Shown: positions 2,574 through 49,604 of the stretch, in pieces | How positions within the stretch are numbered: the first letter of the stretch is position 1 | Layout of the letters: every line of letters begins with the position of its first letter | From: Synechococcus sp. CBW1004 | Lineage (GTDB): Bacteria; Cyanobacteriota; Cyanobacteriia; PCC-6307; Cyanobiaceae | DNA length: 64,000 nt | Direction of reading: 5' to 3' | Assembly: GCF_015840715.1 (NCBI RefSeq) | Contig: NZ_CP060397.1 | Coordinates: forward strand, 2,810,686 to 2,874,685 | Position numbers and translations under genes: made by a program | Notes under the pieces: model-generated | What the model was told of the DNA's origin: nothing | The model's database searches: none | The model's input: the letters and a program-made list of their open reading frames with translations, nothing else

Positions 2574-2659
2574 GGGCGGATCCCCATCCCGCTGAGGGGG
2601 GCCAGGCTGTCCGGTCGTGCTTCAGCCCGCCGCCGCCTGCCATCGGCGCAGTCTCTGCC

Positions 2660-2836: not shown

Positions 2837-3074
2837 GGTCGCGACGCTGTCTGGATACGGGCCAGGATCGGCCGGAGCTGCGCGTGCGACACGGGCCGAT
2901 CTCAGGGGCCCAGACCCTAGGTCCGCCGGGGAAGGCCGGCGTTCGATCCCGGCAGCCGATCGCAGGGACACTGCGGATGGTGTTCGGCGTCACTGGCCAC
3001 ACCATCGCTGGTACCGCTCCCCTGGAGCGCCCCTTGTCACCCCGGTTAGCCTGGGCTCAGCCGTCAGCATCCGG

Positions 3075-3407: not shown

Positions 3408-3409
3408 CG

Positions 3410-3435
3410 CCTGACGCCGCAGCCCCTGCGTCAGG
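3410..3435 (+). terminator. Possible terminator hairpin after the hypothetical gene
   Basis: A perfect 8-bp inverted repeat CCTGACGC / GCGTCAGG with a 10-base loop lies three bases after the stop codon of the preceding gene. There is no T-tract, so it may be only a 3'-end stabilising hairpin. Confidence 0.35.
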
Positions 3436-3518
3436 CCCGCCGGCCGCACTCCTCGGGGCTTCCGGCGTCTGCTTGACGCTGAATGGCATGATGGTGCTTG
3501 ACAAGCACAAGGGATACG

Positions 3519-9740: not shown

Positions 9741-9765
9741 CGCACAACGTTACGAAGGAAGGCTG

Positions 9766-27003: not shown

Positions 27004-28845
27004 ATGGCGATGTTGAGATTTTTCCGGAAAAGAAGCCAAACCCTGGATCACCTGGTACGGCTGATGAGCTTTCTGCCGTCTCGCCGATACCGGGCGTTAC
27101 TTGTATTGACTCCGCTTTCCGTTCTGCCGGGGGTCATCGATCTTGTCACCATTGCTGTTGTCGCCAGGCTCACGGGGGCTCTGATCGGCGTGGAGCTTCT
27201 GGATGTGTTGCCGGGGGTTCGTATTTTTGGCGGCAATCTGGTTGATCAGAGCTTCTGGTTGATCTCGATTTTCATCCTGCTTTCCTGGACGGCTTCGGGG
27301 TTGCGACTGGCTCTTCAGTATTCACAGCAAAGACTGACCGCGCTAATCTGGCGTGACCTGTCCGACCAGATTCATCATAACGTTCTCTATCAGCGCTATT
27401 CCTATCATCTGCTCCGCAGCACCGCTGGGCTCACATCTCTGATCATCGGAAACGTCAAAGCTGTATCCAACGGTGTGATCAATCCCATCCTGCGGATGAC
27501 CAGCAGCATCGTTTCCGTGCTGTTGCTGTCGATCGGCATTGTTTTTGTGGGCCGCTGGCTTTCGGTGGTTCTGATTCTCATGTTGGTCGTCTCCTATCTC
27601 GGCCTCTCCATGTTCCTGACCCCCTATCTGCGGCATGCGTCCAAGCAGATGGTGCGAGAGGACGAGCGCTCGACCCACTCTTTGATGGAGTCGCTGGCAT
27701 CGATCAGAGATATCCAGCTGTCCAATTCGGAGCCCTATTTCCAAAGCCACTTTGTCAAGACGGGCGAGCGTGCCCAGCGTTATTATTGGATATCGGCCAT
27801 GATTCCAATCATCCCCAGGCAGCTGATCGAGCCCTTGGGAATCACGCTGATCTTTGTGTTTGGTGCCATCCCCTATCTCAATAGTGGCGATGAGGGTGCC
27901 ATCCGCCGGATCATCCCGATGCTGGCGGGCCTCGCCATTGCGGCCCAGAAGCTGACGCCACCGTTGCAGGAGCTGTTCTCCTCGATCACCTTGCTGCGTG
28001 GCAGCCTGCCGAAGATCGCCAAGACCGTTGAGCTCCTTGAGCTCCCGGAGCCAAGGCTGACCCTGAATTCACCAGGAGTCCTGCGCACCGAATCTGTCTA
28101 TCCGCGCCATGCCATCAGTCTCAAAGATGCGTGGTATCGCTATCCACGCTCTGAAGAATGGGTGCTGAAAGGCGTCAATCTCAACATTCCGGTCGGTGCC
28201 CGGGTTGCCCTTGTCGGAGCCACGGGCAGCGGCAAGAGCACGGTCGCCCATCTGCTGCTTGGGTTGCTGGATCCTCAGCGTGGCGCTCTGGAGCTCGATG
28301 GAATTGGGCTCGATGCGTATTCGAGGCCATCCTGGCAGGCCTGCTGTGCCCAGGTGCCCCAGCACATCCAGCTCCTGGATGACAGCATCCGGGCCAACGT
28401 TGCTTTCGGCGTCGAAGATGAGGACATCGATGATGACCGACTCTGGGATGCGCTGCAATCGGCTCAGTTGGCTGATCTTGTGGCTGAAATGCCCTATGGG
28501 CTGCTCACTCCGATCGGCGAGAACGGCATGAAGCTTTCCGGAGGTCAGCGTCAGCGTCTCGCTCTGGCGAGGGCTTTCTACAGAGAGGCGAAGTTTCTGT
28601 TGCTCGATGAGGCCACCAGCGCCTTGGATAACCGTACCGAATCATTCGTGATTGATGCGATTGAAACTGTCGGCCGCCGCTGTACCACCGTCATCATTGC
28701 CCATCGGTTGAGCACCATTGTGCGTTGTGACCGCATCTATGAATTTGGCAATGGATGCGTGAAGGCCTCGGGAACCTACGAGGAACTCAAGAATCGATCC
28801 ACATCGTTTCGCGATCTGGCGTTGCTTGAATCGGCAACCCAATAG
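27004..28845 (+). CDS. ABC exporter (MsbA/PglK-like) for a lipid-linked glycan
   Basis: Protein of 613 residues: an N-terminal six-helix membrane domain followed by a nucleotide-binding domain with Walker A GATGSGKST, the signature LSGGQRQRLAL, and Walker B LLLDEATSALD. Fused half-transporters of this kind flip lipids, lipid-linked oligosaccharides or peptides. Location after glycosyltransferase genes favours a glycolipid substrate. A hand-counted 60-base stretch at its start is about 50% GC, clearly lower than the ~70-75% of neighbouring housekeeping genes, which suggests transfer from elsewhere. Its last 59 bases overlap the end of the convergent gene. Confidence 0.85.
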   Translation: MAMLRFFRKRSQTLDHLVRLMSFLPSRRYRALLVLTPLSVLPGVIDLVTIAVVARLTGALIGVELLDVLPGVRIFGGNLVDQSFWLISIFILLSWTASGLRLALQYSQQRLTALIWRDLSDQIHHNVLYQRYSYHLLRSTAGLTSLIIGNVKAVSNGVINPILRMTSSIVSVLLLSIGIVFVGRWLSVVLILMLVVSYLGLSMFLTPYLRHASKQMVREDERSTHSLMESLASIRDIQLSNSEPYFQSHFVKTGERAQRYYWISAMIPIIPRQLIEPLGITLIFVFGAIPYLNSGDEGAIRRIIPMLAGLAIAAQKLTPPLQELFSSITLLRGSLPKIAKTVELLELPEPRLTLNSPGVLRTESVYPRHAISLKDAWYRYPRSEEWVLKGVNLNIPVGARVALVGATGSGKSTVAHLLLGLLDPQRGALELDGIGLDAYSRPSWQACCAQVPQHIQLLDDSIRANVAFGVEDEDIDDDRLWDALQSAQLADLVAEMPYGLLTPIGENGMKLSGGQRQRLALARAFYREAKFLLLDEATSALDNRTESFVIDAIETVGRRCTTVIIAHRLSTIVRCDRIYEFGNGCVKASGTYEELKNRSTSFRDLALLESATQ

Positions 28846-30109
28846 CTTTTCCGGGAGATTTGATCATCGTCAGCGAGCCGATGGCCAGGCCCATCAGTGC
28901 CTGAATCCAGCTGACCTTGCCCCAGCCGCCTTCGATCAGCAATGAAGTCAGAATGAAAAGATTCAGGCTGGCTGCGCAGAGCGTCACTTCCTGCTTGTTG
29001 CGACTGGCCATCAAGAAGCTGCGTTTCATGGCCCAGGCGGCCACCGCAAGGATGGCCAGCATGGCGAACAGTCCATTGTCCGCGGCGACCTGGGCGAAAA
29101 TGTTGTGGGCGTGGCTTGACCCCTTGATCAGCCCGATGTTCTGGCAGAGGGTCTGACTGGCCCGCGTGAAGCCCATGCCATGGACCAGGCGATTATGGCC
29201 GCTGAATGGGATGGAAAAATAACAACGAAGCAGATGCAGCCTGTGCATATCGCTCACTTGATTCTGCGGATTGGCATAGATTCGCAATGCCAGCGCTGCC
29301 GCTCCGCCGGCGAGCAGGCCCAGGCCGGTCAGTTTCAGGATGAGGCGGCTCCATGGCGCTGCAAGGCTCCGCCCCAGTGGAGAGGCAATCGGCTTCAGTG
29401 CGGCCTGCAGCCATCGCCCTCCACCCGCCAGCCGATCTCGATCGGCCACAGCCAGGATGATGGCGGGACACAGCAGGCCCAGGCCAACGCCGAAACGTGA
29501 CCCGGTGCTGATCACCAAGGCCAGTGGCACCAGGCTGGCCAGGGCCCAGAAGGCGCTGAGCGCGAGTCGGAGCCGGATCGGCCGCCGGCTGGTCGCCGCC
29601 TTCCACAGACAACAGAGGCTCAGGCTCAGGCAGGCGCCCATGAGGAAGGCCGTCTGGTTGATCGATAGCGTGCCTGCGTTGAAAGGATCCAGGGCGGCGG
29701 CGCCGCTGCGGAGCTGATGCGAGATCAGGCCGCCCAGGGGCAGGGCGATGGCGGCAGCAGGGAACAGCAGCTTCCAGAAGGCAACAGGGAGACGATGGGA
29801 TGCGGCGAAGGCGAGGATGATCAGGATGTAGTCAAACAGGCTGATTTCCGACCATAGATAGCGTTCATCCCCCTGCAGATAGATGCGTGTCGACAGCAAT
29901 AGCAGGGTGAGATACAGATAGCGCATCGGCTCCTGTCCGGCGTGATTGAGCAGCAGCAGGGCCAGGCCGATCAGCAGAGGAGTCATCTCATACTGGTGCG
30001 GCAGCACCGAGTCGAGCAGACACAGCACACCGCTGCAGACGATCAGCACAGCTGCGCTGACATCGATCCAGCCGCGCGGTGCCTCTGAGCCGGGTGGACG
30101 GACTGTCAT
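28787..30109 (-). CDS. O-antigen ligase/polymerase-like membrane protein (paralog 1)
   Basis: Protein of 440 residues with about ten hydrophobic segments and one large periplasmic loop. It has the hallmark of the O-antigen ligase/Wzy superfamily, SHAHNIFAQVAADNG, near residue 335. Such proteins polymerise or transfer undecaprenyl-linked glycans on the periplasmic face. The start codon overlaps the stop of the upstream paralog in an ATGA arrangement (30106-30109), so the two are translationally coupled. Its 3' end overlaps the ABC exporter gene by 59 bases in opposite orientation. Confidence 0.82.
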   Translation of the reverse strand: MTVRPPGSEAPRGWIDVSAAVLIVCSGVLCLLDSVLPHQYEMTPLLIGLALLLLNHAGQEPMRYLYLTLLLLSTRIYLQGDERYLWSEISLFDYILIILAFAASHRLPVAFWKLLFPAAAIALPLGGLISHQLRSGAAALDPFNAGTLSINQTAFLMGACLSLSLCCLWKAATSRRPIRLRLALSAFWALASLVPLALVISTGSRFGVGLGLLCPAIILAVADRDRLAGGGRWLQAALKPIASPLGRSLAAPWSRLILKLTGLGLLAGGAAALALRIYANPQNQVSDMHRLHLLRCYFSIPFSGHNRLVHGMGFTRASQTLCQNIGLIKGSSHAHNIFAQVAADNGLFAMLAILAVAAWAMKRSFLMASRNKQEVTLCAASLNLFILTSLLIEGGWGKVSWIQALMGLAIGSLTMIKSPGKAIGLPIQATPDRETMWIDS

Positions 30110-31293
30110 CGATCCTCGAGCCGGAGGCTGATGAAGCCCAGCTGCAGGCCCAGCAGCACCTGCAGCAGGCTGGATTGGGCCCAGCCGCCATGGATCTGAA
30201 CGTCCAGCAGGCTGAACAGGGCGCCGCTCAGGCCCGCGCTGATCACGGGACTGGGCAGACGACAGATCAACCGGCCGCCGTGAAGCACAGCCGCCACGAT
30301 CAGGGCACCGATCCCGGCAAGGGCGAGCATGCCGTTGTCCGCTGCGATCTGGGCCAGGAGATTGTTGGCCTGGATCTGCTGGGCTCCGGGCACGATCTCC
30401 TGACAGAGCCAGCCGCTGGAATTGGTGAAGCCGACCCCCAGGGCGAAGCGCTCCCAGAGACTGAAGGGTGCCGCCAGAAAGCAGCGCAGCAGCGACACCC
30501 GCTCGGCCATGCCTGCCGTGGCCTGCGGGCTCAGCACCGAGGGGCTGGCCAGCAGCGTCCCCGCTGTTGCGGCCCCGAGCGTCAGAACCGCCAGGAGGGC
30601 GGCGCGCAGGCGCCGCACACTGACTGCGCCCGCGGCCTGGCACCAGGGGATCAGCTGCACCGTCAGGACGGCGACCACCGCGAGCGTCAGCACCCAGGGC
30701 CCGCCGCTGGCCAGGCACAGGGCGGCACTGATCAGACTGAGCAGGCCCCAGCCCAGACCCTGCAGGCCGGGATGGTCCCTGCGGCAGATCGCGATCACCC
30801 GGGGCAGTGCCAGCGACAGGCTGAGGCCGAAGAGCATCGCGCTCTGCGCGGCCGTGAGGCTGCCGGCTGCCAGCGGACCGCTGTTGCCGTTCAGCGCGTT
30901 CAGCACCCAGGCGATCACGCCCGTCAGCGGGATCAGGGTGGCGAACAAGGTCTGAAACCGATCCCAGAAGCGCACTCCGGCCCGGAAGCCGGCGGCAGCC
31001 GCGACCAGCACCAACAAGGCATCGCTCAGGGTGATCTCCTGCGGCAGGTAGCGATCCCCCTCCCCCAGGGTCATCCGCAGGGTGAGCAGCAGCAGCACCA
31101 GCCATCCCGTCACCAGCGGCTGCTCGCCCAGCCTGCTGATCAGCAGCAGCAGCACCCCTCCGATCAGGGGAGCCATGCCCAGGCTTTCAGCGGCCACCAT
31201 CCCCAGCAGCACGGTGATGGCGTTGAGCAGGATCAGACCGATCGCCAGCCTTGCACTGAGCTCGCGCCAGCCGTTCCGCATGGAAGCGTTCAT
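30106..31293 (-). CDS. O-antigen ligase-like membrane protein (paralog 2, histidine motif altered)
   Basis: Protein of 395 residues, hydrophobic with about ten segments, and alignable with the following gene around LLRCF(L/Y)..PFS and GVGFTNSSGWLCQ. Where paralog 1 has SHAHN and the third paralog also has SHAHN, this protein has IQANN (codons near 30361-30375), so both histidines of the motif are missing while the flanking AADNG is kept. It may therefore lack ligase activity or act as a partner. It overlaps the next gene by four bases (ATGA) and follows the GT2 gene after 13 bases. Confidence 0.75.
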   Translation of the reverse strand: MNASMRNGWRELSARLAIGLILLNAITVLLGMVAAESLGMAPLIGGVLLLLISRLGEQPLVTGWLVLLLLTLRMTLGEGDRYLPQEITLSDALLVLVAAAAGFRAGVRFWDRFQTLFATLIPLTGVIAWVLNALNGNSGPLAAGSLTAAQSAMLFGLSLSLALPRVIAICRRDHPGLQGLGWGLLSLISAALCLASGGPWVLTLAVVAVLTVQLIPWCQAAGAVSVRRLRAALLAVLTLGAATAGTLLASPSVLSPQATAGMAERVSLLRCFLAAPFSLWERFALGVGFTNSSGWLCQEIVPGAQQIQANNLLAQIAADNGMLALAGIGALIVAAVLHGGRLICRLPSPVISAGLSGALFSLLDVQIHGGWAQSSLLQVLLGLQLGFISLRLEDR

Positions 31294-31306: not shown

Positions 31307-32785
31307 TCAGCGCTCCGGAGCCGCTGCGGCCAGAAGTCGGCGCCACGGTGAGCAGTAGGTGTCGACGCAGTACGGGCCTCCCAGCCGCTCTCCCCAGACA
31401 TCGGCGAAATCAGCCAGTTCGGGGGGCGTTTCCACCCGGCGACTGGCGGATTCATGGTGGATCCAGCGGCTGCCGGGCACGAGCACCGTGTGCTCGCCAA
31501 GCTCAGCGGCTCGAAGGCAGAAATCCACATCGCCGTAGTTGATCGGAAAACGCTCCGACAGGCCCCCCAGACGCTCCCACAGGGAGCGACGGCACAGGCA
31601 GACGGCGGCGGTCACGGCGTGAAACCGGCGCAGTCCCTGCAGGGTGCCCCAGGGGAGCTGCTCCGGTCTGCAGCCGGCCCAGGCATGCCTCGGCGCCAGG
31701 TTGTCGATCGCCGTGCCCGCATGCTGCACCCGTCCGTCGGGGTAGAGCAGCAGGGCACCGGCGATCCCCACTGAGGGCTCCTGCAGGGCACGGAGCAGAG
31801 CCGACACCCCATCGCCGTCGAGCAGTTCGGTGTCGTCGTTGAGCTGCAGCAGGAAGTCGCCGCTGGCCGCTGCCGCCGCCCGATTGATCCGATCGGTGTA
31901 GCTGTAGGCACTCCTCTGTCGCAGCAGGCGCCAGCGTCCAGGGCCGAAACCTCTCACCACCAGTCCCTCCAGCGACGCGATCGCCTCGTCCTCGAGTTCG
32001 CCGCCGTCGATCATCACCACCTCGAGATTGCGGTGGCGGCTGTGTTCCACCAGGCTGCGGAGGCAGTTGAGCACCAGCATCTCCGTCCCGGCTCCGGAGC
32101 GGTGCCGGAAGCCTGCGGTTGGAATCAGCAGGCTCACCAGCGGCGCCGCCGCTGTCATCGGCTCCGGTGGAGCAAGGGCAAGCGGCTCCGTCGCCGGGGC
32201 CTGCACCAGTGGCAGGGGCACGTGCGCGTGGCCGCCGCAGGTTTCAGCCAGCCGATGCAAAGAGCTGCGCCACGCCGCCGGGCTGGTGTGGTCTGCGCGG
32301 CGGGGCAGCTGGCGGGCCAGCACCCCGCTCACCAGCACCGGCCCGTCGGCGATCCCGACCTGCCGGTCGAAGAGCGCATCCCACAGTGGCTTCTGCCGCC
32401 AGCTCCAACGGCCGTCCCGTCGGATCCAGTCGTCACAGGTCACCATCGCGGCGCCGCTGCGTCGCATCCGTGCCGCCAGCCGCTGCTGGAGGCGTTGTCG
32501 TTCGCCGGGCCGGGGATCCCAGCCGGGTGGCAGCAACAGCCGGCTGTCCCGAAGCACCGCGGCACGTTCTGCGGGGGAGGCCCACATCCCCGGTTGCCAG
32601 CGCAGCAGGCCCATGCGCAGATGGTCGGCCCAGAGGCGGTCGCGCCACCGTTCCAGTTTCGGGATCAGGCGTTCGGCCGCCACCCGCAGCAGGCCGGACG
32701 GATCGCCCTGCAGCAACTGGCCGGCGATCAACAGGGCCTTGTGCGATTTGCGCCGGAAGCGACCCGTTGTCGTGGCGAGGCTCAT
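31307..32785 (-). CDS. GT2-type glycosyltransferase, large with N-terminal extension
   Basis: Protein of 492 residues. The C-terminal ~290 residues form a GT2 domain: VSLLIPTAG start, LQLNDDTELLDG for the DxD-like metal site, and a C-terminal NYGDVDFCLRAAELG motif. The first ~200 residues are an extra basic, tryptophan-rich region of unknown function, as in rhamnan/polysaccharide synthesis enzymes. The start overlaps the upstream gene's stop by four bases (ATGA at 32782-32785). It belongs to a four-gene minus-strand operon. Confidence 0.85.
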   Translation of the reverse strand: MSLATTTGRFRRKSHKALLIAGQLLQGDPSGLLRVAAERLIPKLERWRDRLWADHLRMGLLRWQPGMWASPAERAAVLRDSRLLLPPGWDPRPGERQRLQQRLAARMRRSGAAMVTCDDWIRRDGRWSWRQKPLWDALFDRQVGIADGPVLVSGVLARQLPRRADHTSPAAWRSSLHRLAETCGGHAHVPLPLVQAPATEPLALAPPEPMTAAAPLVSLLIPTAGFRHRSGAGTEMLVLNCLRSLVEHSRHRNLEVVMIDGGELEDEAIASLEGLVVRGFGPGRWRLLRQRSAYSYTDRINRAAAAASGDFLLQLNDDTELLDGDGVSALLRALQEPSVGIAGALLLYPDGRVQHAGTAIDNLAPRHAWAGCRPEQLPWGTLQGLRRFHAVTAAVCLCRRSLWERLGGLSERFPINYGDVDFCLRAAELGEHTVLVPGSRWIHHESASRRVETPPELADFADVWGERLGGPYCVDTYCSPWRRLLAAAAPER

Positions 32786-34698
32786 GGCTGGCCTCCCCGC
32801 CGCAGAGCCCGCAGCAGCCTCCCCGGCGGGCTGGCCCGCAGGCCGTCCAGGCGACGGGCGAGCCGGCCGACCCGCTCGGCCCGCTCCAGCAGGGGCCGCT
32901 GGCTTGGCAGGCTGCTGCCGAGGAAGGCCTGGGGGCGGGATTCCAGGTCGATTCCCAGCCGTTGCAGCCAGCCGGCCAGCGACTCGGTGCAGGGCAGCTG
33001 GCGTCGCAACCATTCCATCTGATCCGCCGCGAGCAGCCTGAGGCTGGCGTCATCCTGCTGGGTCCACCAGGTCAGGACGCTGTCTTGCGTCAGTCGGGGA
33101 AGTGGCAGATCCGGAGCGTCGAGCAGCGGTGAGGGACGCCTCAGCCGTTGCGGGCTGACGAGGATGACGGCGCGACCGCGGGCCATCGCTTCGAGGTGGG
33201 CCGTGCCCAGATGCCCCGGGGCGATCAGCACTCGGCAGCGGTTCAGGAGGGTGGCGAAGGGAAGGCAGGGCAGATCCTGCTCGAGCCCCTGAGCCCGGGC
33301 GTCGCTCAGGCCGGCCGGTTCGAGCGGCGGCTTGCGGGCCAGCAGCAGCGGAATCCCCAGGTCGGTCAGCTCCCGGTGCAGGCTGCCGACGGCCTGCCAG
33401 TACTCCTGTGGATCGGCCAGCGGAATCAGGGCCTGTTGCTGCAGCGGGTAGTGGACCCAGCCCACCGCCATCGCCTGGGGCCAGGGCAGCGGCGCCTGCA
33501 GGTCGAGGGCATCGAGGAGGTGGGCGCGCACCGGATCGAGACACAGCACGGCGCCCGTGCTCGGATCGGCAGGATCGCCGTCCGCCCGGCGCTGGCCCCG
33601 CAGCGGCACCAGGCGCGCGTCCTGCGGCCGCAGATGGCGCTGCCAGCGGAGTGGCAGGCCGCCCGGCTGCACTTCGGCGCTGTGGTGCAACACCGCGCAG
33701 GCCTGCCGGTTGTGGCGCATCCGCTGCGTGAAGCGCTCCAGCGCCAGGTCGTTCTCATCGGGCACCAGTGCCAGGACGGGGCGGCTGCGTTCCAGCTGGC
33801 GGGCCAGCCGCTGATCGAGCCTCTGGCGCTCTCTGCCGACGGCCTCGGCATCCAGCTCGAGCAGCGGCCAGCGACCCAGCGCCTCGAGCCAGGCCGAGGC
33901 CGAGGCCCGCTCCGCCTCCGCCGGACAGGCCGGCGGCACCGGAGCCGCCGGCAGAGAGGCCGGCAACCGGGCATGCGCGCGCCAGCGGCAACTGTCATGG
34001 AACAGGTCCGGCAGGGCGGGCGCCGGCCCGGGTTCGAACAGCAGGACCGGCAATCCCGCGGCCTCGAGCTGCACGAGCGGCCACTCGGGATGGCGCAGCT
34101 TGCCGATCGCCAGGCACACCGCTCCGTCCGGCGAGGCGCCACTGTTCTCCTCCGGCGCGGGGTCGGCCGGACCGGTGTGGCGAGGCAGAGCGGCCACCAG
34201 GCTCACATCCTGACCGCGTCCGCCCAGCACGGCCGCCAGCACCAGGGCCGGCAGGTCCCCCAGCCTCGAGAAGCGCGGGGGGCGAAACCGTTCTCCCACC
34301 GGCAGCAGGATGCGCTGGAAGGGCTGCAGCTCCTCGGCCCACACGGGCAGAAGCGCCAGGCTGAGCAGGGCCGGGGTGATCAGATCGCCGCTCAGCAGTT
34401 CCCGGATCGGCTCCTGGAGCGGCGTGTCGACGGCAATGGGAGTGAGGGCATCGAGCTGCTGTTTCCAGTCCGCGAGCCGCGCATCGGTGGCTGACCAGGC
34501 CTTGGAGCCCCGTCCTCCCAGCCAGTGCACCCCCTCGCTCGCGCCAGCCTGTTCAAGACGGGCCCAGGCTTTGAGCGAGCCGCAGAACAGCGTCTCCTGT
34601 GCCGACATGCCGGGTTGGCGCAGCCCGACGGCCTCCCGCTCGGCGATCCACCAGTCGGCCGCCTCCGGGTCGAAGAGCACGAGGGCATCGCGGCTCAT
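32782..34698 (-). CDS. Large uncharacterised polysaccharide-operon protein
   Basis: Protein of 638 residues that I cannot name. It is soluble, Leu/Ala/Pro-rich, with repeated alpha/beta character. Around residue 500 the segment LLNRCRVLIAPGHLGTAHLEAMARGRAVILV resembles the C-terminal donor-binding half of GT-B glycosyltransferases. The N-terminal half (FDPEAADWWIAEREAVGL) has no clear homology. It is the first gene of a tightly packed operon with a GT2 and two O-antigen ligase-like proteins, so a glycosyltransferase or assembly function is inferred. The ATG at 34698 is preferred over longer alternatives. Confidence 0.6.
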   Translation of the reverse strand: MSRDALVLFDPEAADWWIAEREAVGLRQPGMSAQETLFCGSLKAWARLEQAGASEGVHWLGGRGSKAWSATDARLADWKQQLDALTPIAVDTPLQEPIRELLSGDLITPALLSLALLPVWAEELQPFQRILLPVGERFRPPRFSRLGDLPALVLAAVLGGRGQDVSLVAALPRHTGPADPAPEENSGASPDGAVCLAIGKLRHPEWPLVQLEAAGLPVLLFEPGPAPALPDLFHDSCRWRAHARLPASLPAAPVPPACPAEAERASASAWLEALGRWPLLELDAEAVGRERQRLDQRLARQLERSRPVLALVPDENDLALERFTQRMRHNRQACAVLHHSAEVQPGGLPLRWQRHLRPQDARLVPLRGQRRADGDPADPSTGAVLCLDPVRAHLLDALDLQAPLPWPQAMAVGWVHYPLQQQALIPLADPQEYWQAVGSLHRELTDLGIPLLLARKPPLEPAGLSDARAQGLEQDLPCLPFATLLNRCRVLIAPGHLGTAHLEAMARGRAVILVSPQRLRRPSPLLDAPDLPLPRLTQDSVLTWWTQQDDASLRLLAADQMEWLRRQLPCTESLAGWLQRLGIDLESRPQAFLGSSLPSQRPLLERAERVGRLARRLDGLRASPPGRLLRALRRGGQP

Positions 34699-35092
34699 CA
34701 GATGGGAGGACGCGGGGAGCGGACGGGAACCGGAGCGGCCATCGGGGCGAGGAACGTCGTGGCAGAGGGGCCGGTGCTGGCGCAAGCCAGGCGGATGGCC
34801 ACCGGGTGGCGATCCGCCATGACGGCCTGCGGCCCCCATTCATAACTCTCCCCTGCCCAGGGCCCCCTGGGACGCCAGGGCAGGGTGCGGTGGCGTCAGT
34901 CCCAGAACGCGACCCTTAGGATTTGCGGCTCGATGGGTCACTGCCTGTCCGCTCGCAGCGCATCGCACAGGGAACCGGATTGATCATGGCCAGCAGCAAT
35001 CGACAGCACTGCCGCATGGCTCCGTGAGGTTCGGTCGGGATCGCGCTCCCTGGCTCCTGGCCATTGGTGGGGCCGCCGTGCCCGGCAGGGAC
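34699..35092. promoter_or_regulatory. Divergent intergenic region with nested inverted repeats
   Basis: These 394 bases separate two divergent polysaccharide genes and should hold both promoters. I see no convincing gene. A perfect 8-bp repeat CCCTGCCC / GGGCAGGG (34851-34858 and 34878-34885) encloses part of a second palindrome, CCCAGGG-CC-CCCTGGG (34856-34871). The two foldings compete, so the region could act as an operator, attenuator or mRNA structure. No clear -35/-10 pair stands out. Confidence 0.4.
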
Positions 35093-37261
35093 ATGGAGCT
35101 TCCAGAGCCGGATGGGCCGCCCGCCGGCGGAGTGGCTGCTCCGACGCCGGCCACCCCGCCGGGGCATGCGTCGCGGGCGGCGGTCTACCGGCCGGAGATT
35201 GATGGTCTCCGGGCCCTGGCCGTGCTGGCGGTCATCGCGAATCACATGGACCGCGAGGCCCTCCCCAGCGGATACCTGGGCGTCGACATCTTCTTCGTCA
35301 TCTCCGGTTTCGTGATCAGCGGTTCGCTGGCCTCCCAGCCCCCGCAGGTGAGTCTGGGCCGCTTCCTGCTCGGGTTCTACAGCCGTCGCATCCGCCGCAT
35401 CCTGCCGGCCCTGCTGGCCTGCGTCGTGGTGACCAGCGTGCTGGTCTGCCTGTTCGACACCCGACCGACGGCGTCGCTGCAGACGGGGCTTTCAGCCCTG
35501 TTCGGCTTCTCGAATCTGTTTCTGCTGCAGGAATCGGTGGATTACTTCGCCCGCAGCAGCGACCTGAATGCCTTTCTGCACACCTGGTCGCTGGGCGTGG
35601 AGGAGCAGTTCTATTTCGTGTTCCCGCTGTTGTTCTGGTTTGGTGCTGTTGCGCGTGGCAGCGCCGCGGGCCGCAGGCGCCTTCTGGGGGTGCTGAGTGT
35701 CGCCTCAGCCCTCTCCCTGGCCGCTTTCGTGCTCCTGGCCCGCCACCATCTGGCGCAGGCCTATTTCCTGATGCCCAGTCGTTTCTGGGAGCTGGGTGCC
35801 GGCAGCCTGCTGTTTCTGCTGCATCGGTCCGGCCGCCTGCGGGGAGCCTGGCAGCGACTGCCGTCGCTCCTGCCGCTGGGTCTGCTCCTGGCGGCGCTGT
35901 TCCTGCCGCTCCGCCTGGAGGTTCCAGCCACCCTTGCCGTTGTCGGCCTCACCGTCGCGGTGATGGCGATGGGACTGGCGGGTGCGGACCGGCGGCTGGT
36001 GGGGCTGCTCTCCCATCCCTGGGCCGTCGGCCTTGGCCTGCTCTCCTATTCGCTCTACCTCTGGCACTGGCCCGTGCTGGTGCTGAGCCGCTGGACGATC
36101 GGCATCACAGTCGCAACCCTGCCGCTGCAGGTGCTGCTGATGGGAGCCCTGGCGATGGGCTCGTTCCACTGGCTGGAGCAGCCGCTGCGGCGCCGGGCCT
36201 GGGGCCGCAGCGAGGGGGGCACGATCGTGATCGGTCTGGTGGCCGCCGGGCTCGCGGCGCTGGCGATCTGGGGGCTGAAGGTGCCCTTCCGCCACCGGCT
36301 CTACCTGGGGCGTTTTCACGGCACCGATCGCAGTGAGGAGTGGTCGAATCTGGCGGTGCCCGGCACCACGATCGATCCCGATGTCTGCAACACGCAGACC
36401 ACCGACGCCACGGTTCTGGTGGATCAGGTCTCCTTCGCGCGTCTGGTGGCCCGCTGCTCGGCCGAACCGGCCGCTTCACCCCGGGACGCCTTGTCCCGGG
36501 CCCCACATCTCTATGTCGTGGGCGACAGCCACGCCATGGCCTTCTCACCCGTAGCGGCGGGGCTGCTGGCGGATGGGCGCTACGGCATCTCCATCCTCAG
36601 CCGCCCCGGCTGTCCCTTTCCGGATTCACTTCACGGACATCTGGACACCAACTGTTCGCGGTTCCTGCAGGCCACTGAAGCCAGCGTCCTGTCCCGCGCA
36701 CGCCCCGGCGACACGGTGCTGATCGTCAACTATCTGCTCAGTCACCTCGGTGATGCCCATAGCCTCCGGGACACCCGCAACCGGTTCCGCGGTGCTGATG
36801 GCCTGCCGATCAGCGATTCCGCCGCCAAATGGACCACCTGGCGCGGCGGGCTGGCTCGCTTCGCCTCCCTGGCCCGGGCCCGTGGCCTGAGGGTGGTGGT
36901 GCTGGGAGCGACGCCCAGGAATCCCGACTACTTCACGTGCCGGCAGGAGTGGTTCAACCTGCAGGCGGCCGGCCGTTGTGACGGGCTGGTGGCCGAGGAA
37001 CAGACCTGGGCCCGGCAGCTCAACCAGCGCCTGGCCGGGGATCTGCCGGCGGGGGTCCGGATGTTCGACCCCTTGACGGCGCTCTGCCCGAAGGGATGCC
37101 GCAACTACCAGGTCACCCGTCTGCTGCGCGACACCGATCACCTCTCCCGTGCAGGGGCCCGCAGCCTCGTTCCTGCCTTCCGGAGGTTCCTGGCATCCAT
37201 GCCATCCGCGCAGGGCGAGGTGGGCGTGCCACAGGCTTCGCTTCGCCAGGCCCCACCATGA
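35093..37261 (+). CDS. Membrane acyltransferase (AT3) fused to SGNH domain (paralog 2)
   Basis: About 722 residues, same architecture as the gene at 9766-11970. The AT3 half shows YRPEIDGLRALAVLAVIANH with conserved Arg and His and about ten membrane helices. The C-terminal part has GDSHAMAFSP (nucleophile Ser) and DTDHLSRAG (catalytic Asp/His). It probably transfers acetyl or other acyl groups to a surface glycan. The ATG at 35093 is preferred; GTG 35024 would add 23 residues. It is divergent from the large uncharacterised gene and followed by kdsC. Confidence 0.88.
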   Translation: MELPEPDGPPAGGVAAPTPATPPGHASRAAVYRPEIDGLRALAVLAVIANHMDREALPSGYLGVDIFFVISGFVISGSLASQPPQVSLGRFLLGFYSRRIRRILPALLACVVVTSVLVCLFDTRPTASLQTGLSALFGFSNLFLLQESVDYFARSSDLNAFLHTWSLGVEEQFYFVFPLLFWFGAVARGSAAGRRRLLGVLSVASALSLAAFVLLARHHLAQAYFLMPSRFWELGAGSLLFLLHRSGRLRGAWQRLPSLLPLGLLLAALFLPLRLEVPATLAVVGLTVAVMAMGLAGADRRLVGLLSHPWAVGLGLLSYSLYLWHWPVLVLSRWTIGITVATLPLQVLLMGALAMGSFHWLEQPLRRRAWGRSEGGTIVIGLVAAGLAALAIWGLKVPFRHRLYLGRFHGTDRSEEWSNLAVPGTTIDPDVCNTQTTDATVLVDQVSFARLVARCSAEPAASPRDALSRAPHLYVVGDSHAMAFSPVAAGLLADGRYGISILSRPGCPFPDSLHGHLDTNCSRFLQATEASVLSRARPGDTVLIVNYLLSHLGDAHSLRDTRNRFRGADGLPISDSAAKWTTWRGGLARFASLARARGLRVVVLGATPRNPDYFTCRQEWFNLQAAGRCDGLVAEEQTWARQLNQRLAGDLPAGVRMFDPLTALCPKGCRNYQVTRLLRDTDHLSRAGARSLVPAFRRFLASMPSAQGEVGVPQASLRQAPP

Positions 37262-37336: not shown

Positions 37337-37906
37337 ATGCTGTCCTCTGCGCTGGCCCATCACTGGCGCTGGTGGCGCCATCGCCGGACGCTCGCAGGGG
37401 TGCGACTGATCGTCCTCGATGTCGATGGCGTGCTCACCGACGGGGGCCTCTGGTACGGACCGGAGGGGGAGCTGATCAAACGTTTCGATGTCCGGGATGG
37501 CCTCGGCATCCGGCTGCTGCAGCAGGCCGGCATCGAGGTGGCATTCCTCAGCGGCGGGCGGGGTGGCGCCACGGAGGTGCGGGCGTCCCATCTCGGCATC
37601 CGCCACTGCCTGGTGGGTGCGCGCGACAAGCCCGTGGCGCTGGCGGGTCTGCAGACGCAGCTTGGTGTCGCGGTGGAGCAGACCGCCTTCGTGGGGGATG
37701 ACTACAACGATCTGGCGGTTCGGTCGCTGGTGGGTCTGCTGGTGGCCACCGCAGACGCGGCCCGCCCGCTGCGCCGTCAGGCGGATGTGGTGCTGCGGAG
37801 GCCAGGCGGCCGCGGCGCCGTGCGCGAGCTGGCCGAGCGACTGGTGGGTCCCACAGCCTTCGGCCGGGACCTCAGGGCCCGCGGCTGGCGTGATCGCAAC
37901 GATTGA
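37337..37906 (+). CDS. kdsC: 3-deoxy-D-manno-octulosonate-8-phosphate phosphatase
   Basis: Protein of 189 residues of the HAD superfamily type C0, about the length of KdsC. LIVLDVDGVLTDG carries the nucleophile and acid/base aspartates, FLSGG is the second motif, and AFVGDDYNDLAV the third. KdsC releases phosphate from Kdo-8-P. The short C-terminal extension after VLRRPGGRGAVRE is typical of the tetrameric phosphatases. About 17 N-terminal residues before the domain (HHWRWWRHRR) are unusual. kdsA lies 1 kb downstream on the same strand. Confidence 0.87.
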   Translation: MLSSALAHHWRWWRHRRTLAGVRLIVLDVDGVLTDGGLWYGPEGELIKRFDVRDGLGIRLLQQAGIEVAFLSGGRGGATEVRASHLGIRHCLVGARDKPVALAGLQTQLGVAVEQTAFVGDDYNDLAVRSLVGLLVATADAARPLRRQADVVLRRPGGRGAVRELAERLVGPTAFGRDLRARGWRDRND

Positions 37907-38884: not shown

Positions 38885-39715
38885 ATGCCGTCTTCAGACC
38901 CGATGAGCTTCACCCTGATTGCCGGCCCCTGCGTGATCGAGAGCCGCGACCTGGCCACGACGGTGGCGCGGGAGCTGAAGGCGATCTGTGAGCCGCTGGG
39001 TATCCGCTATGTGTTCAAGGCCAGCTTCGACAAGGCCAACCGCAGTTCGGGCGGCTCCTTCCGTGGCCCGGGAATGCAGGAGGGCCTGGCGGTGCTGGCG
39101 GAGATCCGGCAGGAGCTTGACGTGCCGGTGCTGACGGACATTCATGAAAGCCACCAGGCGGCGACGGTGGCCGAGGTGGTGGACATCCTCCAGATCCCGG
39201 CCTTCCTCTGCCGCCAGACGGACCTGCTGATGGCCGCAGCGGAGGCCGTACGGGGCACCGACAAGGTGATCAATGTCAAGAAGGGCCAGTTCCTGGCACC
39301 CTGGGACATGCAACAGGTCGTGACGAAGCTGCAGCAGGCCGGTGCTGAGCGGATCTGGCTCACCGAGCGGGGCAGCAGCTTCGGTTACAACACGCTGGTG
39401 GTCGACTACCGCAGCCTGCCTCAGCTGCGCGAGCTGGGCTGTCCGGTCATCTTCGACGCCACCCATTCGGTGCAGCAGCCGGGCGGCCGGGGCACCAGCA
39501 GCGGCGGGCAGCGGCAGTTCGTCGCCCCTCTGGCGCGGGCCGCCGTCGCGGTGGGCGTCGATGGCCTGTTCATGGAGGTCCATCCGGATCCCGATCAGGC
39601 GCTCAGCGATGGGCCGAACATGGTGCCGCTGCACCGGGTGCAGCCGTTGCTCGAGCAGCTGATCGGACTGCGCCGCTGTTTGGAACAGCAGCCGGAAGCC
39701 GTCAGCGTCTATTGA
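38885..39715 (+). CDS. kdsA: 3-deoxy-8-phosphooctulonate synthase
   Basis: Protein of 276 residues, normal for KdsA, which condenses phosphoenolpyruvate and arabinose-5-phosphate to Kdo-8-phosphate. [10 protein letters not shown] starts the barrel, [12 protein letters not shown] is the substrate loop, [12 protein letters not shown] and [13 protein letters not shown] are the conserved motifs, and [15 protein letters not shown] ends it. ATG 38906 is an alternative start and would give [10 protein letters not shown] at the N-terminus. It supplies Kdo for LPS or related glycans together with kdsC upstream. Confidence 0.95.
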
Positions 39716-39737: not shown

Positions 39738-40250
39738 ATGATCCTGAGTCCGTTGTCGCTGTTGCCGCGCAGGATTCCGCCGAAGGGGCTGCCGCTGCTG
39801 CTGCTCGGCCTGCTCGGATGCAGTGGCGGGCCCCCTGGGCCGCGCCGGCTGGATCTCCAGCTCACGGTCGCGGCGAAGGATCCGCTGACGCGCCAGCAGA
39901 TGCAGAGGGGCGATGGGCGCTACACCTCGATCCGTTTCGCTGAACGGGGACAGAATTGCCGTGGCGGCGCTGGCTTCGCCGCCTTCCAGGCGGCGACTCC
40001 GGTCGAGGTGCAGGATCAGAGCGGGCGTGTGCTGGGTGATGGCACCCTCGGGGACGGCACCTTTGAGATCAAGGGCCGCGATCCGGAAGGAGAGACCCTG
40101 TACACAGCCTGTCGCTTCAGGGTGGCGATCCCGCTTGCCGCTGAGGCACGGATCTACATCGTGCGCATCGGCGGTGAGGCGCTGGTCAGGCGCCTGCATG
40201 TCTCGGAAATGCACCGTCTGAAGGGGACGGTCAGGCTCACGATCGACTGA
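39738..40250 (+). CDS. Putative lipoprotein, hypothetical
   Basis: About 170 residues. A hydrophobic stretch LLLLGLLGCSGG resembles a lipobox-type signal (LLGC), so the mature protein is probably lipid-anchored. The remainder is beta-rich with two widely spaced cysteines (NCRGG and TACRF). No family recognised. Its last 14 bases overlap the convergent O-antigen ligase-like gene. It starts about 20 bases after kdsA on the same strand. Confidence 0.6.
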   Translation: MILSPLSLLPRRIPPKGLPLLLLGLLGCSGGPPGPRRLDLQLTVAAKDPLTRQQMQRGDGRYTSIRFAERGQNCRGGAGFAAFQAATPVEVQDQSGRVLGDGTLGDGTFEIKGRDPEGETLYTACRFRVAIPLAAEARIYIVRIGGEALVRRLHVSEMHRLKGTVRLTID

Positions 40251-41571
40251 CCTGTTCCACCCCGGCAGGATCGGCGAGCGTGTCGTGCCCCAGCCTGATC
40301 GGCTCGAGCGAAAAGGGGGTGGCCAGGAAGAGCCCGAAGCAGAGCATGAACAGAGGCACCTTGACCATGCCCAGTTCGAAGAGATTGAATCCCACCAGGT
40401 AGGTGACGAGGGCTGCACTCGAGAAGATCAGCAAGCGTGGGTTGGCCAGCGCCTGCTCGCGGCAGTTGTGCAGGACGCGACGGAGCGTCCAGCCGATCCA
40501 GGCGCTCATGAAGACAAAGCCGGCAACACCGTTTTCTCCCAGAACCTGCAGGAAGAGATTGTGGGCATGGCTGAGTGGACGCCCCACCTGACGGGCGGTG
40601 CACAGGACACGCCAGGCCCGCTCATAGCCGACGCCCCAGATGAACCGGTTGTTTCCGGTGAAGGGAAGGCCGAGGTAGCAGCTCCAGAGTTTCAGTCGGG
40701 CCGCGTCATTTTCGAGGTTCTCCTCGCCGTAGATCCCGGCGAGTCCGATGCCATCCTCCGGGACCTCGGCGGTCTGCTGATGGATCAGCCACAGCACCGT
40801 CAGCAGTGTCGCCATCAGGATCGCCAAGATCAGCAGAGGGCGTCGCAAGCGACCGAACCGCTGTCGCCAGCGGTGGATCAGGGCTGGGCCCCAGGACAGG
40901 AGTGACCCGAACAGGACGGCCAGACCCGCCATGCCCATGCCCGCCCGGGAATCAGCGGCTCGCAGCAGCAGCAGCGTTGCGACAAGGGCCAGGCCATGGA
41001 GCAACCGTGACCAGGGAGGGCGATGGGCCAGGGCAGCGATCAGGCTGCACAGACTGGCCAGACCAGCCAGCAGCGCCGTCTGATTCTTGGTCAGGGCGGC
41101 GGTGTGATATTCGACGCCGAGGCGTGCGAAATCCACCACGACGTCCAGCTGCAGCAGGACGCCGATCAGGGTTGCCAGGGCCAGAACCGACGCCTGCCGC
41201 AACCACCAGGCCGACGGTCGCGCGAAGCCGCAGGCAAAGGCCGTGAGCATCAGCAGGTGGTCGATCGGCGAGACCGGCAAGGGCCCCTCGTCGAGCACGA
41301 TCCAGCGGAGGTTGAGCACCACCAGCCCCAGCAACGCGAACGACCAGGGCCGCGCGGCGGCCTGCCTCAGCAGGCCGAGCACCAGCCAGACGGCCACGAG
41401 CCCATTGCTGGCCTGGAGATCGCCGCTGGCGAACAGGGCAACGACGGCCACGCCGAGGGCCAGGGATTGCATCCCTTCCAGCAGCGCCGCTCCATCGATC
41501 CGTCCTGGCCGCGGTCTGCGGTTGGCCGGGTCGCTCCCGGCTGTCATCGATGCGTCCTCAGCCGTGTTCAT
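40237..41571 (-). CDS. O-antigen ligase/polymerase-like membrane protein (paralog 3)
   Basis: Protein of 444 residues with about ten to eleven hydrophobic segments. The superfamily motif SHAHNLFLQVLGENG is present, as in paralog 1 at 28787-30109, so the histidine pair is intact. The start codon overlaps the stop of pcrA by four bases (ATGA at 41568-41571), giving a coupled pair with a DNA helicase. Its 3' end overlaps the lipoprotein gene on the other strand. A role in joining surface glycans is likely. Confidence 0.82.
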   Translation of the reverse strand: MNTAEDASMTAGSDPANRRPRPGRIDGAALLEGMQSLALGVAVVALFASGDLQASNGLVAVWLVLGLLRQAAARPWSFALLGLVVLNLRWIVLDEGPLPVSPIDHLLMLTAFACGFARPSAWWLRQASVLALATLIGVLLQLDVVVDFARLGVEYHTAALTKNQTALLAGLASLCSLIAALAHRPPWSRLLHGLALVATLLLLRAADSRAGMGMAGLAVLFGSLLSWGPALIHRWRQRFGRLRRPLLILAILMATLLTVLWLIHQQTAEVPEDGIGLAGIYGEENLENDAARLKLWSCYLGLPFTGNNRFIWGVGYERAWRVLCTARQVGRPLSHAHNLFLQVLGENGVAGFVFMSAWIGWTLRRVLHNCREQALANPRLLIFSSAALVTYLVGFNLFELGMVKVPLFMLCFGLFLATPFSLEPIRLGHDTLADPAGVEQVSRS

Positions 41572-46810: not shown

Positions 46811-46861
46811 GGGCCCGGGCAGGCCTTGCCTAGGCTCCCTGGCCGATGGAATACCGAGGCG

Positions 46862-47680
46862 ATGGTGGAGTCGGCGTCAGGTCGTGAGCCCGCGGGGGCC
46901 GACGATCTGCGGTTCGTGGTGGCGGTGCCCGCTCGGCTCGAATCCTCGCGCCTGCCCGGCAAGGTGATGGCCGACATCGGCGGCCGGCCGATGCTGCAGC
47001 GTGTGCTCGAGCGCTGCGGCCGCGCCCGCAGCCCCCGGGCCGTGGTGCTCTGCACCGACAGCCCCGAACTGATCGAGGCGGCCGCCGGCTGGGGCTTCCC
47101 CGCCCTGCTCACCAGCGCCGCCTGTGCCTCCGGCAGTGAGCGCATCGCCTCGGTGGTGGAGGACATGGTGGATCTGGCCGGGGCGCCGCATGAGCGCACC
47201 GTGATCCTCAACGTGCAGGGGGATCAGCCCTTCATCGATCCGGCCGTGATCGATGCGATGGCGGGCGAGTTCCTGCGCCGCGGCGAGGGGGCCGAGGTGC
47301 TCACCCCCGTCTACCGGATGGGGGCCGACAAGGTGCACAACCCCAACGTGGTCAAGACCCTGGTGTCGGCCGACGGGAGGGCCCTGTACTTCTCCCGTTC
47401 CGCCATCCCGCATGTCCGCGGCATCGAGCCGGAGGACTGGCATGCCCATGTGCCGTTCTGGGGCCATGTGGGCATCTACGGCTACCGGGCCAGCGTGCTG
47501 GCGCGCTGGGGCCAGCTGCCCCATTCACCGCTGGAGGAGATCGAGAAGCTCGAGCAGCTGCGCCTGCTGGAAGCCGGCATCGGCATCGGCACCTTCACCG
47601 TCGAGGGTGAATCGCTGTCGGTGGATACCGCCGAACAGCTGGAGCAGGCCCGCGCCATCGCCGCCGCCGGAGACGACTGA
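46862..47680 (+). CDS. kdsB: 3-deoxy-manno-octulosonate cytidylyltransferase
   Basis: Protein of 272 residues with the nucleotidyltransferase motif VVAVPARLESSRLPGKVM. It also has the substrate pocket stretches LNVQGDQPFIDP and GIYGYRASVLARW, plus LEEIEKLEQLRLLE near the end, all typical of KdsB. It activates Kdo as CMP-Kdo. The N-terminus is about 14 residues longer than usual. The downstream GT8-like gene begins about 230 bases away; kdsD lies beyond it on the other strand. Confidence 0.95.
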   Translation: MVESASGREPAGADDLRFVVAVPARLESSRLPGKVMADIGGRPMLQRVLERCGRARSPRAVVLCTDSPELIEAAAGWGFPALLTSAACASGSERIASVVEDMVDLAGAPHERTVILNVQGDQPFIDPAVIDAMAGEFLRRGEGAEVLTPVYRMGADKVHNPNVVKTLVSADGRALYFSRSAIPHVRGIEPEDWHAHVPFWGHVGIYGYRASVLARWGQLPHSPLEEIEKLEQLRLLEAGIGIGTFTVEGESLSVDTAEQLEQARAIAAAGDD

Positions 47681-47907: not shown

Positions 47908-48615
47908 ATGGCTGTCCCGATTCCGATCTTCATCGGCTACGACCCCCACGAGCGGGCCGCCGTCAATGTGCTCGCCGACAGCCTCGTGCAGCACAGCAGC
48001 AGGCCGCTGGCGATCACGCCGATCGTGGCCCGTCAGCTGACGGATGTGTTCAACCGCGAGCGCAACCCACGTCAGAGCACCGAGTTCTCCTTCAGTCGCT
48101 TTCTGGTGCCCTGGCTGCAGCAGTACCAGGGTTGGGCCGTCTTCATGGACTGCGACATGCTCTGCCGCGGCGACATCGCCGAACTGTGGGAGCTGCGCGA
48201 TGAGCGCCATGCCCTGATGTGCGTCCAGCACGAGCATGTGCCGCGCGAGAGCGTGAAGTTCCTGGGGGCTGAGCAGACCACCTACGCCCGCAAGAACTGG
48301 AGCTCGCTGATGCTGTTCAACTGCAGTCGCTGCACGGCGCTCACCCCCGACTACGTGAACAGCGCCAGTGGCCTGCAGCTGCATCGCCTCGAATGGCTGT
48401 CGCCCGAGGAGAGCATCGGGGCGCTGCCCCTCGGCCGCTGGAACCACCTGATCGATGTGGAGGCACCCCGCGAGGCCCCTGCCGCCGACGGCGGGCCGGC
48501 ACTCGTCCACTGGACCCTGGGAGGCCCCTGGTTCCGGGAGTACAGGCTGGCGGGTGGGGTGCTGGCCGCGGAATGGCTGGCGGCCCGCGACGAGGCGATG
48601 CGCCTGTGGAGCTAG
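47908..48615 (+). CDS. GT8-like glycosyltransferase (paralog B)
   Basis: Protein of 235 residues, closely similar to the gene at 38127-38837, including the FIGYDP start and the [19 protein letters not shown] metal motif. It lies between kdsB and kdsD; its last four bases overlap the convergent kdsD stop. Both copies neighbour Kdo genes, so a role in an LPS inner core or in a Kdo-containing glycan is plausible but not shown. I chose ATG 47908, in line with paralog A. Confidence 0.8.
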   Translation: MAVPIPIFIGYDPHERAAVNVLADSLVQHSSRPLAITPIVARQLTDVFNRERNPRQSTEFSFSRFLVPWLQQYQGWAVFMDCDMLCRGDIAELWELRDERHALMCVQHEHVPRESVKFLGAEQTTYARKNWSSLMLFNCSRCTALTPDYVNSASGLQLHRLEWLSPEESIGALPLGRWNHLIDVEAPREAPAADGGPALVHWTLGGPWFREYRLAGGVLAAEWLAARDEAMRLWS

Positions 48616-49604
48616 CCGCTGGCCAGACCCGCCTGCACCAGGTCGTGCAGCCGCAGCAGGCCCAGCATGCGGGTGTCCTCCGAGACCACCGGCAGCACCG
48701 CGATCGCCTTGCGGCGATTGCGCTCCATCTGCTTCAGCGCCTCGATCGCCAGCGTGTCGCCCGTGATCGTGATCGGATCCGCCGTCATCAGCTCGGCGGC
48801 GATCAGCCGGTCCCACTCCCGGGGACCGTGGTGCAGCAGCGCCCGGCGCAGGTCGCCGTCGGTGATCAGGCCCTGAATCCGCTCCGGGTCCCCGTCGCGG
48901 GCCACCCAGCAGGCGCCGACGCCGTCGACGGTGAGATGGCTGATCACCTCCGCCAGAGGGGTGAGCGGTGAGAGCGGGGCCAGCCGCGCCACGGGCACCA
49001 TCAGATCGGCGGCCGTGAGGGTGAGCTGCTTGCCCAGGGAGCCGGCCGGGTGATTGAGGGCGAAGTCCTGCGGGGAGATCCCCCGCCGCTCCATCCACAC
49101 CGCCGCCAGGGCGTCGCCGATGGCCATCGCCACCGCCGTGCTGGCCGTGGGGGCGAGGTTGAGCGGACAGACCTCCCGGTCCACCGAGCCGTCGAGCACC
49201 ACCTCGCAGCCGCGCGCCAGGCTCGACTCCACCCGGCCCACCAGGGCGATGCGGCGCGTGCCGCGGCGGCGCAGGTGGGGCAGGATCTCCAGCAGCTCCT
49301 GGGTTTCGCCGCTGTTCGAGAGCAGCAGCGTCACATCGTCGGGGGCCACCACGCCCAGGTCGCCATGCAGGGCGTCGAGGGGATTGAGATAGATCGCCAT
49401 CAGGCCGATCGAGGAAAAGGTGGCGGCGATCTTGCGGGCGACGATGCCGCTCTTGCCCACCCCGGTGATCACCAGCTTGGCGCGTCGTTCGACGCACTGA
49501 TCCAGCAGGCCCAGAGCGGCTTCCACCTGATCGCTGTCCAGGCGCTGGGCGGTGGCGGCGATCGCAGCGGCCTCCTCGATCAGGCAGCGGGTGAGGGCGG
49601 ACAA
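48612..49604 (-). CDS. kdsD: Arabinose-5-phosphate isomerase
   Basis: Protein of 330 residues, typical of KdsD. The SIS domain has ITGVGKSGIVARKIAATFSS and LLSNSGETQE; the C-terminal part carries two CBS motifs (ITDGDLRRAL, with MTADPITI between). It converts ribulose-5-phosphate to arabinose-5-phosphate, the first committed substrate for Kdo. The only reasonable start is TTG 49604, thirteen bases from the divergent cca start. The 3' end overlaps the GT8-like paralog by four bases. Confidence 0.93.
   Translation of the reverse strand: MSALTRCLIEEAAAIAATAQRLDSDQVEAALGLLDQCVERRAKLVITGVGKSGIVARKIAATFSSIGLMAIYLNPLDALHGDLGVVAPDDVTLLLSNSGETQELLEILPHLRRRGTRRIALVGRVESSLARGCEVVLDGSVDREVCPLNLAPTASTAVAMAIGDALAAVWMERRGISPQDFALNHPAGSLGKQLTLTAADLMVPVARLAPLSPLTPLAEVISHLTVDGVGACWVARDGDPERIQGLITDGDLRRALLHHGPREWDRLIAAELMTADPITITGDTLAIEALKQMERNRRKAIAVLPVVSEDTRMLGLLRLHDLVQAGLASG

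Follow-up and report, generated by a model that had tools for sequence, protein, structure and literature searches.

The closest described relative of the proteins considered here is the WaaL O-antigen ligase of Cupriavidus metallidurans (CAZy GT121; PDB 7tpg and 7tpj), in which, according to the available portions of PMC10920833, R191 and R265 bind undecaprenyl pyrophosphate (Und-PP) and H313 is the proposed base; the WaaL histidine is numbered differently between papers (His-313 in PMC10920833, His338 in the available part of PMC10449877), and in the accessible text of PMC12800693 the H324A variant of the related PglS served as an inactive control. The SEDS polymerases (RodA, FtsW, GT119) share the GT-C(B) fold, and those portions of PMC10920833 state that their base position is occupied by an Asp that is essential. 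We analyzed a stretch of 64,000 nucleotides from Synechococcus sp. CBW1004 (contig NZ_CP060397.1, positions 2,810,686 to 2,874,685; hereafter the window), which contains a tandem pair of ligase-like genes. The upstream member, P0003, resembles WaaL in its fold, in having an Arg265 equivalent and in the register of its HxHN loop, but differs from it in lacking the equivalents of Arg191 and His313, in standing in tandem with an intact copy, P0002, and in being Pfam-negative at E-values up to 1 (as is P0002); it has no SEDS-type Asp or Glu at the place of the ligase His, but an Asn (Asn310). A single WaaL-fold protein encoded elsewhere in this genome, L001, which we take to be of the IctB type and whose function is unsettled, reads SAYS at the HAHN position and is a precedent for a missing base in this fold; unlike P0003 it keeps the SR motif, scores 81.8 bits to Pfam Wzy_C and is the sole such match at its place. 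We give about an even chance to the reading that P0003 is a maintained, catalytically dead protein of the O-antigen ligase fold, kept as the non-catalytic partner to P0002, the intact ligase. The genes and motifs concerned are the following (residue numbers of family columns follow P0002; below, G115 and G140 denote genomes and codes beginning with L denote loci).

30106-31293, minus strand: P0003, the upstream copy, 395 amino acids, a WaaL-fold protein without the equivalents of R191 and H313 (putative pseudo-ligase)
28787-30109, minus strand: P0002, the downstream copy, 440 amino acids, with R205, R290, H333 and H335 all intact
40237-41571, minus strand: P0005, a third paralogue, 444 amino acids, catalytic residues intact
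30375 down to 30361, minus strand: IQANN, residues 307-311 of P0003, replacing (S/T)HAHN
30106-30109, minus strand: ATGA, the P0003 stop codon and P0002 start codon in a 4-base overlap

All three proteins are encoded on the minus strand, and plus-strand readings of these intervals are not these proteins. A BlastP comparison of P0002 with P0003 (126/398 identical residues, 32%, E-value 1e-25) confirmed the common origin that an earlier note, made from the letters alone, had claimed for the two overlapping genes; P0005 matched P0002 (118/390, 30%, 1e-21) and, more weakly, P0003 (87/318, 27%, 1e-8). The overlap, ATGA, would be expected to couple translation of P0002 to that of P0003. The earlier note was also exact in placing IQANN of P0003 opposite SHAHN of P0002 and P0005, as the alignment there is free of gaps and the adjoining AADNG is retained. 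Beyond what it had seen, the Arg of the SR motif is gone as well, TGSRFG of P0002 (R205) corresponding to SGGPWV in P0003. Pfam and NCBIfam scans of the two proteins returned nothing useful (Pfam gave 0 families for P0003 and 0 for intact P0002 at E-values up to 1, so that a Wzy_C test is weak here), and the family was reached through custom profiles and through P0005, which matched Wzy_C with 30.1 bits by hmmscan and 36.7 bits in the genome search. We aligned 37 distinct homologues taken from the loci that the genome searches returned for their best matches only; in the reference set of 35 that leaves out P0003 and the upstream copy of G140 (G140up), 11 columns are invariant in 35/35. P0003 has lost four of these (S204, R205, H333 and H335) and kept seven (R290, C296, G311, G313, C322, N336 and G346), and is also without D287 and N151, present in 33/35 and 30/35 homologues, respectively. 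Since R205, H333 and H335 are found in all 35, the change in P0003 goes beyond ordinary variation within the family. In a wider set, R205, R290 and H335 occur together in 45 of 49 distinct homologues, the exceptions being P0003, G140up, L061 (Arg kept, Ser and Asp at the His places) and L069, a distant homologue of doubtful alignment with Ser instead of R205.

The register against the solved ligase was obtained with profile A3, built from 25 family members with the upstream copies excluded, which matched WaaL 7tpg/7tpj in the PDB with an E-value of 4.2e-10 and found P0003 with one of 2.2e-45; a PDB search with the six-row A2 profile matched no ligase. Counted by hand on the printed A3/7tpg alignment, R205 corresponds to R191, R290 to R265 and H335, the second His of SHAHN, to H313, and the case that the earlier note had set against itself, in which the catalytic His maps elsewhere in P0003, fails. 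The H313 equivalent is Asn in P0003 and G140up and His in P0002, P0005 and the upstream copy of G115 (G115up); the R191 equivalent is Pro in P0003 and Trp in G140up; and the R265 equivalent, R290 of P0002, is kept as R265 of P0003, where the identical number is a matter of chance. By its sequence P0003 is without one of the two Und-PP arginines and without the base, and we strongly infer that it is catalytically dead. AlphaFold2 models of both proteins were compared with solved structures by VIA-align, with which helical models reach Z-scores of about 13-14 through common arrangement alone: for P0002, WaaL 7tpg_B came first (Z 12.2 over 281 residues), and for P0003, 7tpg_B (Z 14.0, 321 aligned residues, root-mean-square deviation 5.2) tied with FtsW 8p1u_A (Z 13.9), SEDS polymerases being the other top matches and the five WaaL/SEDS rows standing ahead of the first unrelated structure at 7.3. 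A Foldseek search with the P0002 model gave no match at an E-value of 0.001 or less. The models, with which the sequence kinship agrees, indicate that P0003 keeps a WaaL-like GT-C(B) fold.

Among 42 genomes of its genus, only this one encodes a relative of P0003. A search of 400 genomes of the family, drawn from a larger group, identified the tandem pair at more than 500 bits in three (this genome, G115, which we judge to be Synechococcus sp. BSA11S, and G140), the next match scoring 117 bits, and a search of 299 genomes of the order, a set overlapping that of the family, returned the same three. G115 and G140 belong to one genus, in which 2/9 genomes have the pair. A scan of the contigs of other genomes with P0003 alone found no relative, and one with the A2 alignment found one locus, in BSA11S. 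The genes and signal that flank the pair in the window are these.

27004-28845, plus strand: ATP-binding cassette (ABC) exporter, fused permease and ATPase, convergent with P0002
31299-31307, minus strand: AGGGGAGAG, a purine-rich, ribosome-binding-site-like stretch recognized by eye, five bases before the P0003 ATG
31307-33013, minus strand: glycosyltransferase with a glycosyltransferase family 2 (GT2) domain in its C-terminal half, the next gene upstream of P0003, given as the listed open reading frame (ORF)
32782-34839, minus strand: 685-residue protein

The gene order is the same in all three genomes, which represent two genera: the 685-residue protein, the GT2 glycosyltransferase (its orthologue adjoining the pair in 3/3), the upstream copy, the downstream copy and the convergent exporter. 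The real start of the GT2 gene may lie further inside its ORF; the last base of its stop codon is the first base of AGGGGAGAG, whose position favours translation of P0003 from the ATG that follows. In G115 and G140 a GT8 gene adjoins that of the 685-residue protein, from which two plus-strand genes separate it in the window. The 685-residue protein had no Pfam or NCBIfam match at an E-value of 0.001, and the top NCBIfam match of the exporter, MsbA, fell under that model's cut-off; the 3' ends of the exporter gene (plus) and P0002 (minus) share 59 bases (28787-28845). The downstream copies are intact in 3/3. The upstream copies form a series, with KSRAG and THAHN in BSA11S, HSWAG and IHSNN in G140, and GGPWV and IQANN in this genome. 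Of the 11 invariant columns G140up has lost just R205 (to Trp) and H335 (to Asn), and its key codons (TGG and AAC, vs CGG and CAC in BSA11S) are single-base steps from the intact state. The earlier note had asked whether the QANN form is conserved in orthologous loci or whether intact orthologues would mark it as a recent local mutation, and each half of the question found a case: G140up is without both the base and the Arg, in what is likely an independent loss, and the BSA11S copy is intact. With one intact and one disarmed counterpart, the loss is neither an old fixed trait nor, apparently, a single local accident.

The 62% identity between G115up and G140up, their shared genus and the tree of the downstream copies suggest that G140 and this genome each underwent a loss of its own, and, as far as these comparisons of sequences go, we consider two independent disarming events at the upstream position the probable history. 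The six pair copies form one clade with support of 100/100 in a 37-row tree, in which the place of P0003 inside the clade is open. A single shared loss is favoured by the masked tree described below, which joins P0003 with G140up at 65/64, and by two features common to these copies, the pattern I..NN and, close to the Arg, a replacement of Pro by Ala; a constrained grouping of G115up with G140up was not rejected in that tree (p 0.416). At the columns that distinguish G115up from G140up, P0003 agrees with the former 25 times and with the latter 17 times, or 9 vs 8 when only states absent from the downstream copies are counted. The upstream copy in BSA11S shows no sign of gene conversion by its downstream twin, as the codons differ (CAT GCC CAC AAT vs CAT GCT CAT AAC, and CGG vs AGG), a check limited by the short stretch around HAHN, where G115up matches its twin at 18/30 bases and G140up at 17/30.

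Orthology of the upstream copies can itself be doubted, as P0003 might derive from a separate tandem duplication of P0002, its likeness to G140up being coincidental. An approximately unbiased test did not reject a clade of P0003 with P0002 (p 0.31), the top window match of both G115up and G140up is P0002 rather than P0003, the 37-row tree leaves the position of P0003 open as said, and P0003 is as near to P0002 (32.4%) as to G115up (32.0%) and G140up (30.0%), so that identity does not decide. The copies nevertheless occupy an identical place in a shared gene order, an upstream clade is supported at 87/92 in an 11-row tree and at 93/100 in a 13-row tree with the catalytic columns masked, and at 70 diagnostic columns P0003 sides with the upstream copies 25:11 (p 0.029) and P0002 with the downstream ones 22:13 (p 0.18; Fisher p 0.009); we regard a separate duplication as very improbable. 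It is somewhat easier to imagine, though still quite unlikely, that P0003 is an enzyme using another base (e.g., E299, the Glu after the second loop Cys) and another substrate, as a polymerase or a ligase of a different glycan. L061 reads QSADS at the HAHN region with its Arg kept, so the site can change, and P0003, the two other upstream copies and 7tpg all have a Glu two residues past the loop Cys; in the intact upstream copy, however, this Glu is present alongside the His, Asn or Gln would not be expected to act as a base, and both disarmed copies have also lost the R191 equivalent. The different chemistry that the earlier note had allowed for is weakened by this absence of an Und-PP-binding Arg, yet it retains the small chance just given, and because the arginine is also gone we hold it less likely than the explanation considered next.

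That explanation makes P0003 a redundant duplicate whose constraint has relaxed and which is becoming a pseudogene, having lost catalysis because the downstream copy suffices; it is on the unlikely side, but a serious competitor. The P0003 gene is strongly accelerated, with a terminal branch of 2.18 vs 0.69 for P0002 in the 37-row tree and changes at 27/77 positions that are invariant in the other five copies (each of those has 2-6 such changes at 52-56 positions), and such fast evolution also fits relaxed constraint. The branch of G140up is likewise longer than that of G115up (0.53 vs 0.13; masked, 0.24 vs 0.13), but its private changes are no more than those of P0002 (6/56 each). By the Nei-Gojobori method (NG86) the nonsynonymous and synonymous divergences (dN and dS) of P0002 and P0003 are 0.86 and 0.99, which is near neutral but unreliable, other methods saturating or failing, and the dN/dS of P0003 itself is unreliable because its dS is saturated, undefined or erratic depending on the method. 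The rarity of the pair would also be in keeping with a dispensable duplicate. Yet the very long branch of P0003 has left its frame intact, without stops or frameshifts (GC by codon position 0.70/0.50/0.88, in a region of 69% GC), and R290, C296, G311, G313, C322, N336 and G346 are retained. In neutral simulations from P0002, with substitutions only and with target codons picked after the data had been seen, the first stop arose at a median of 35-41 substitutions, and medians of 681.5-1260.5 were needed before two to six catalytic codons had changed, only 3, 0, 1 and 0 of 400 runs being free of stops. G115up and G140up differ with dN 0.28-0.29, dS 1.14-1.21 and dN/dS 0.23-0.25, although G140up is disarmed, and the identical two key residues were lost in two genomes. 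The intact frame, the dN/dS of the other upstream pair and the simulations argue against plain decay, and from these sequences we read P0003 as a protein whose fold is probably under selection and whose catalysis has been released.

Several further points weigh against a maintained partner. The pair is rare (just 3/400 family genomes); its upstream copy is intact in BSA11S, so the system does not need a dead partner; and by the listed ORFs the two genes do not overlap in the other genomes, being separated by 73 nucleotides (L022) and 61 nucleotides (G140). The dN/dS of the upstream pair (0.23-0.25) is somewhat higher than that of the downstream pair (about 0.13-0.22), the structural models are of low confidence (mean predicted local distance difference test score 50.8 for P0003 and 62.5 for P0002), and what ties P0003 to P0002 is their tandem coupling and co-occurrence. 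Tandem ligase-like pairs with both members intact also exist. Those of G122 and G192 stand side by side as P0003 and P0002 do, with a 4-base overlap in G122, but both of their members keep SR and HxHN and they fall outside the six-copy clade. Coordinates of such intact tandem pairs are L010:1297-2568 with 2565-3839 (4-base overlap) and L012:46-1266 with 1336-2640.

Further features of the window concern the making of surface glycans.

9646-11970, plus strand: AT3-SGNH fused acyltransferase
35024-37261, plus strand: second AT3-SGNH fused acyltransferase
37337-37906, plus strand: kdsC-like phosphatase
38885-39715, plus strand: 3-deoxy-d-manno-octulosonate (Kdo) 8-phosphate synthase KdsA, within the surrounding glycan region
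46826-47680, plus strand: cytidylyltransferase, which we read as a CMP-Kdo synthetase
48612-49604, minus strand: SIS/CBS protein, which we read as KdsD-like

Fused AT3-SGNH acyltransferases are typical of glycan O-acetylation. Several glycosyltransferases and the ABC exporter also lie near the P0002/P0003 pair, and these neighbours together with the Kdo-type genes place the pair in a surface-glycan region. The presence in a cyanobacterium of a Kdo-synthesis-like set (KdsC, KdsA, the cytidylyltransferase and the KdsD-like SIS/CBS protein) is contrary to the review PMC4390846, the available part of which states that Kdo is absent from cyanobacterial lipopolysaccharide. P0005 overlaps its upstream neighbour, uvrD, by ATGA (41568-41571, minus strand), and its G140 counterpart also lies beside uvrD with a 4-base overlap (L023:7837-9129 and 9126-11600). 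Another single ligase-like gene beside uvrD, L074:7260-8501 of G110 (the same gene as L061), has QSADS at HAHN with SR kept, and may have switched to an Asp of the SEDS kind. In BSA11S and G140, the GC content at third codon positions (GC3) is 0.42-0.53 for the exporter and ligase genes but 0.81-0.89 for uvrD, which suggests that the locus is of foreign origin; among the genes of the window, P0003 (0.88) is nearer to uvrD (0.92) than P0002 (0.74) is.

Taking P0003 as the maintained partner of P0002, we propose that the pair arose from an ancestral ligase gene by tandem duplication, at a site following a conserved glycosyltransferase block. Of the two, the downstream gene would have remained a normal ligase, the Arg191 and Arg265 equivalents holding the pyrophosphate of the lipid-linked glycan and the His313 equivalent activating the acceptor, while the upstream copy would have lost its first Arg and its base, likely independently here and in G140, and retained Arg265, the two cysteines of the loop and the glycines along with its fold. 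P0002 would then be the enzyme, and by the accepted mechanism P0003 would not be expected to catalyse ligation; as the product of a shared message or operon, coupled through ATGA, it would likely form a hetero-oligomer with P0002 and modulate it by binding the lipid-linked glycan or the acceptor, or by stabilising it. The non-catalytic partner that the earlier note had listed among its options stands as the leading idea, its histidine loss being in the correct register, and the partnership itself we infer from the tandem coupling and the pattern. More tentatively, and with rather more doubt than belief, the two may make up a two-subunit ligase whose intact member owes its specificity, chain-length choice or stability to a paralogous WaaL-fold pseudoenzyme, the latter having been disarmed at the same two catalytic residues in two cyanobacterial genera independently.

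Pseudoenzyme partners are well known elsewhere, e.g., among kinases. Our literature search, which covered few subscription papers, identified among the matches listed no description of one for ligases of lipid-linked glycans. Members of this fold without the base exist (L001 and L061); the novelty, as far as the listed literature goes, is that a disarmed copy stands in tandem with an intact copy and that two genera have lost the same pair of residues. The natural series of an intact upstream copy (BSA11S), one that has lost 2 of 11 invariants (G140) and one that has lost 4 (this genome) makes the question directly testable, and a partner role for P0003 would call for ligases to be re-examined for hidden subunits.
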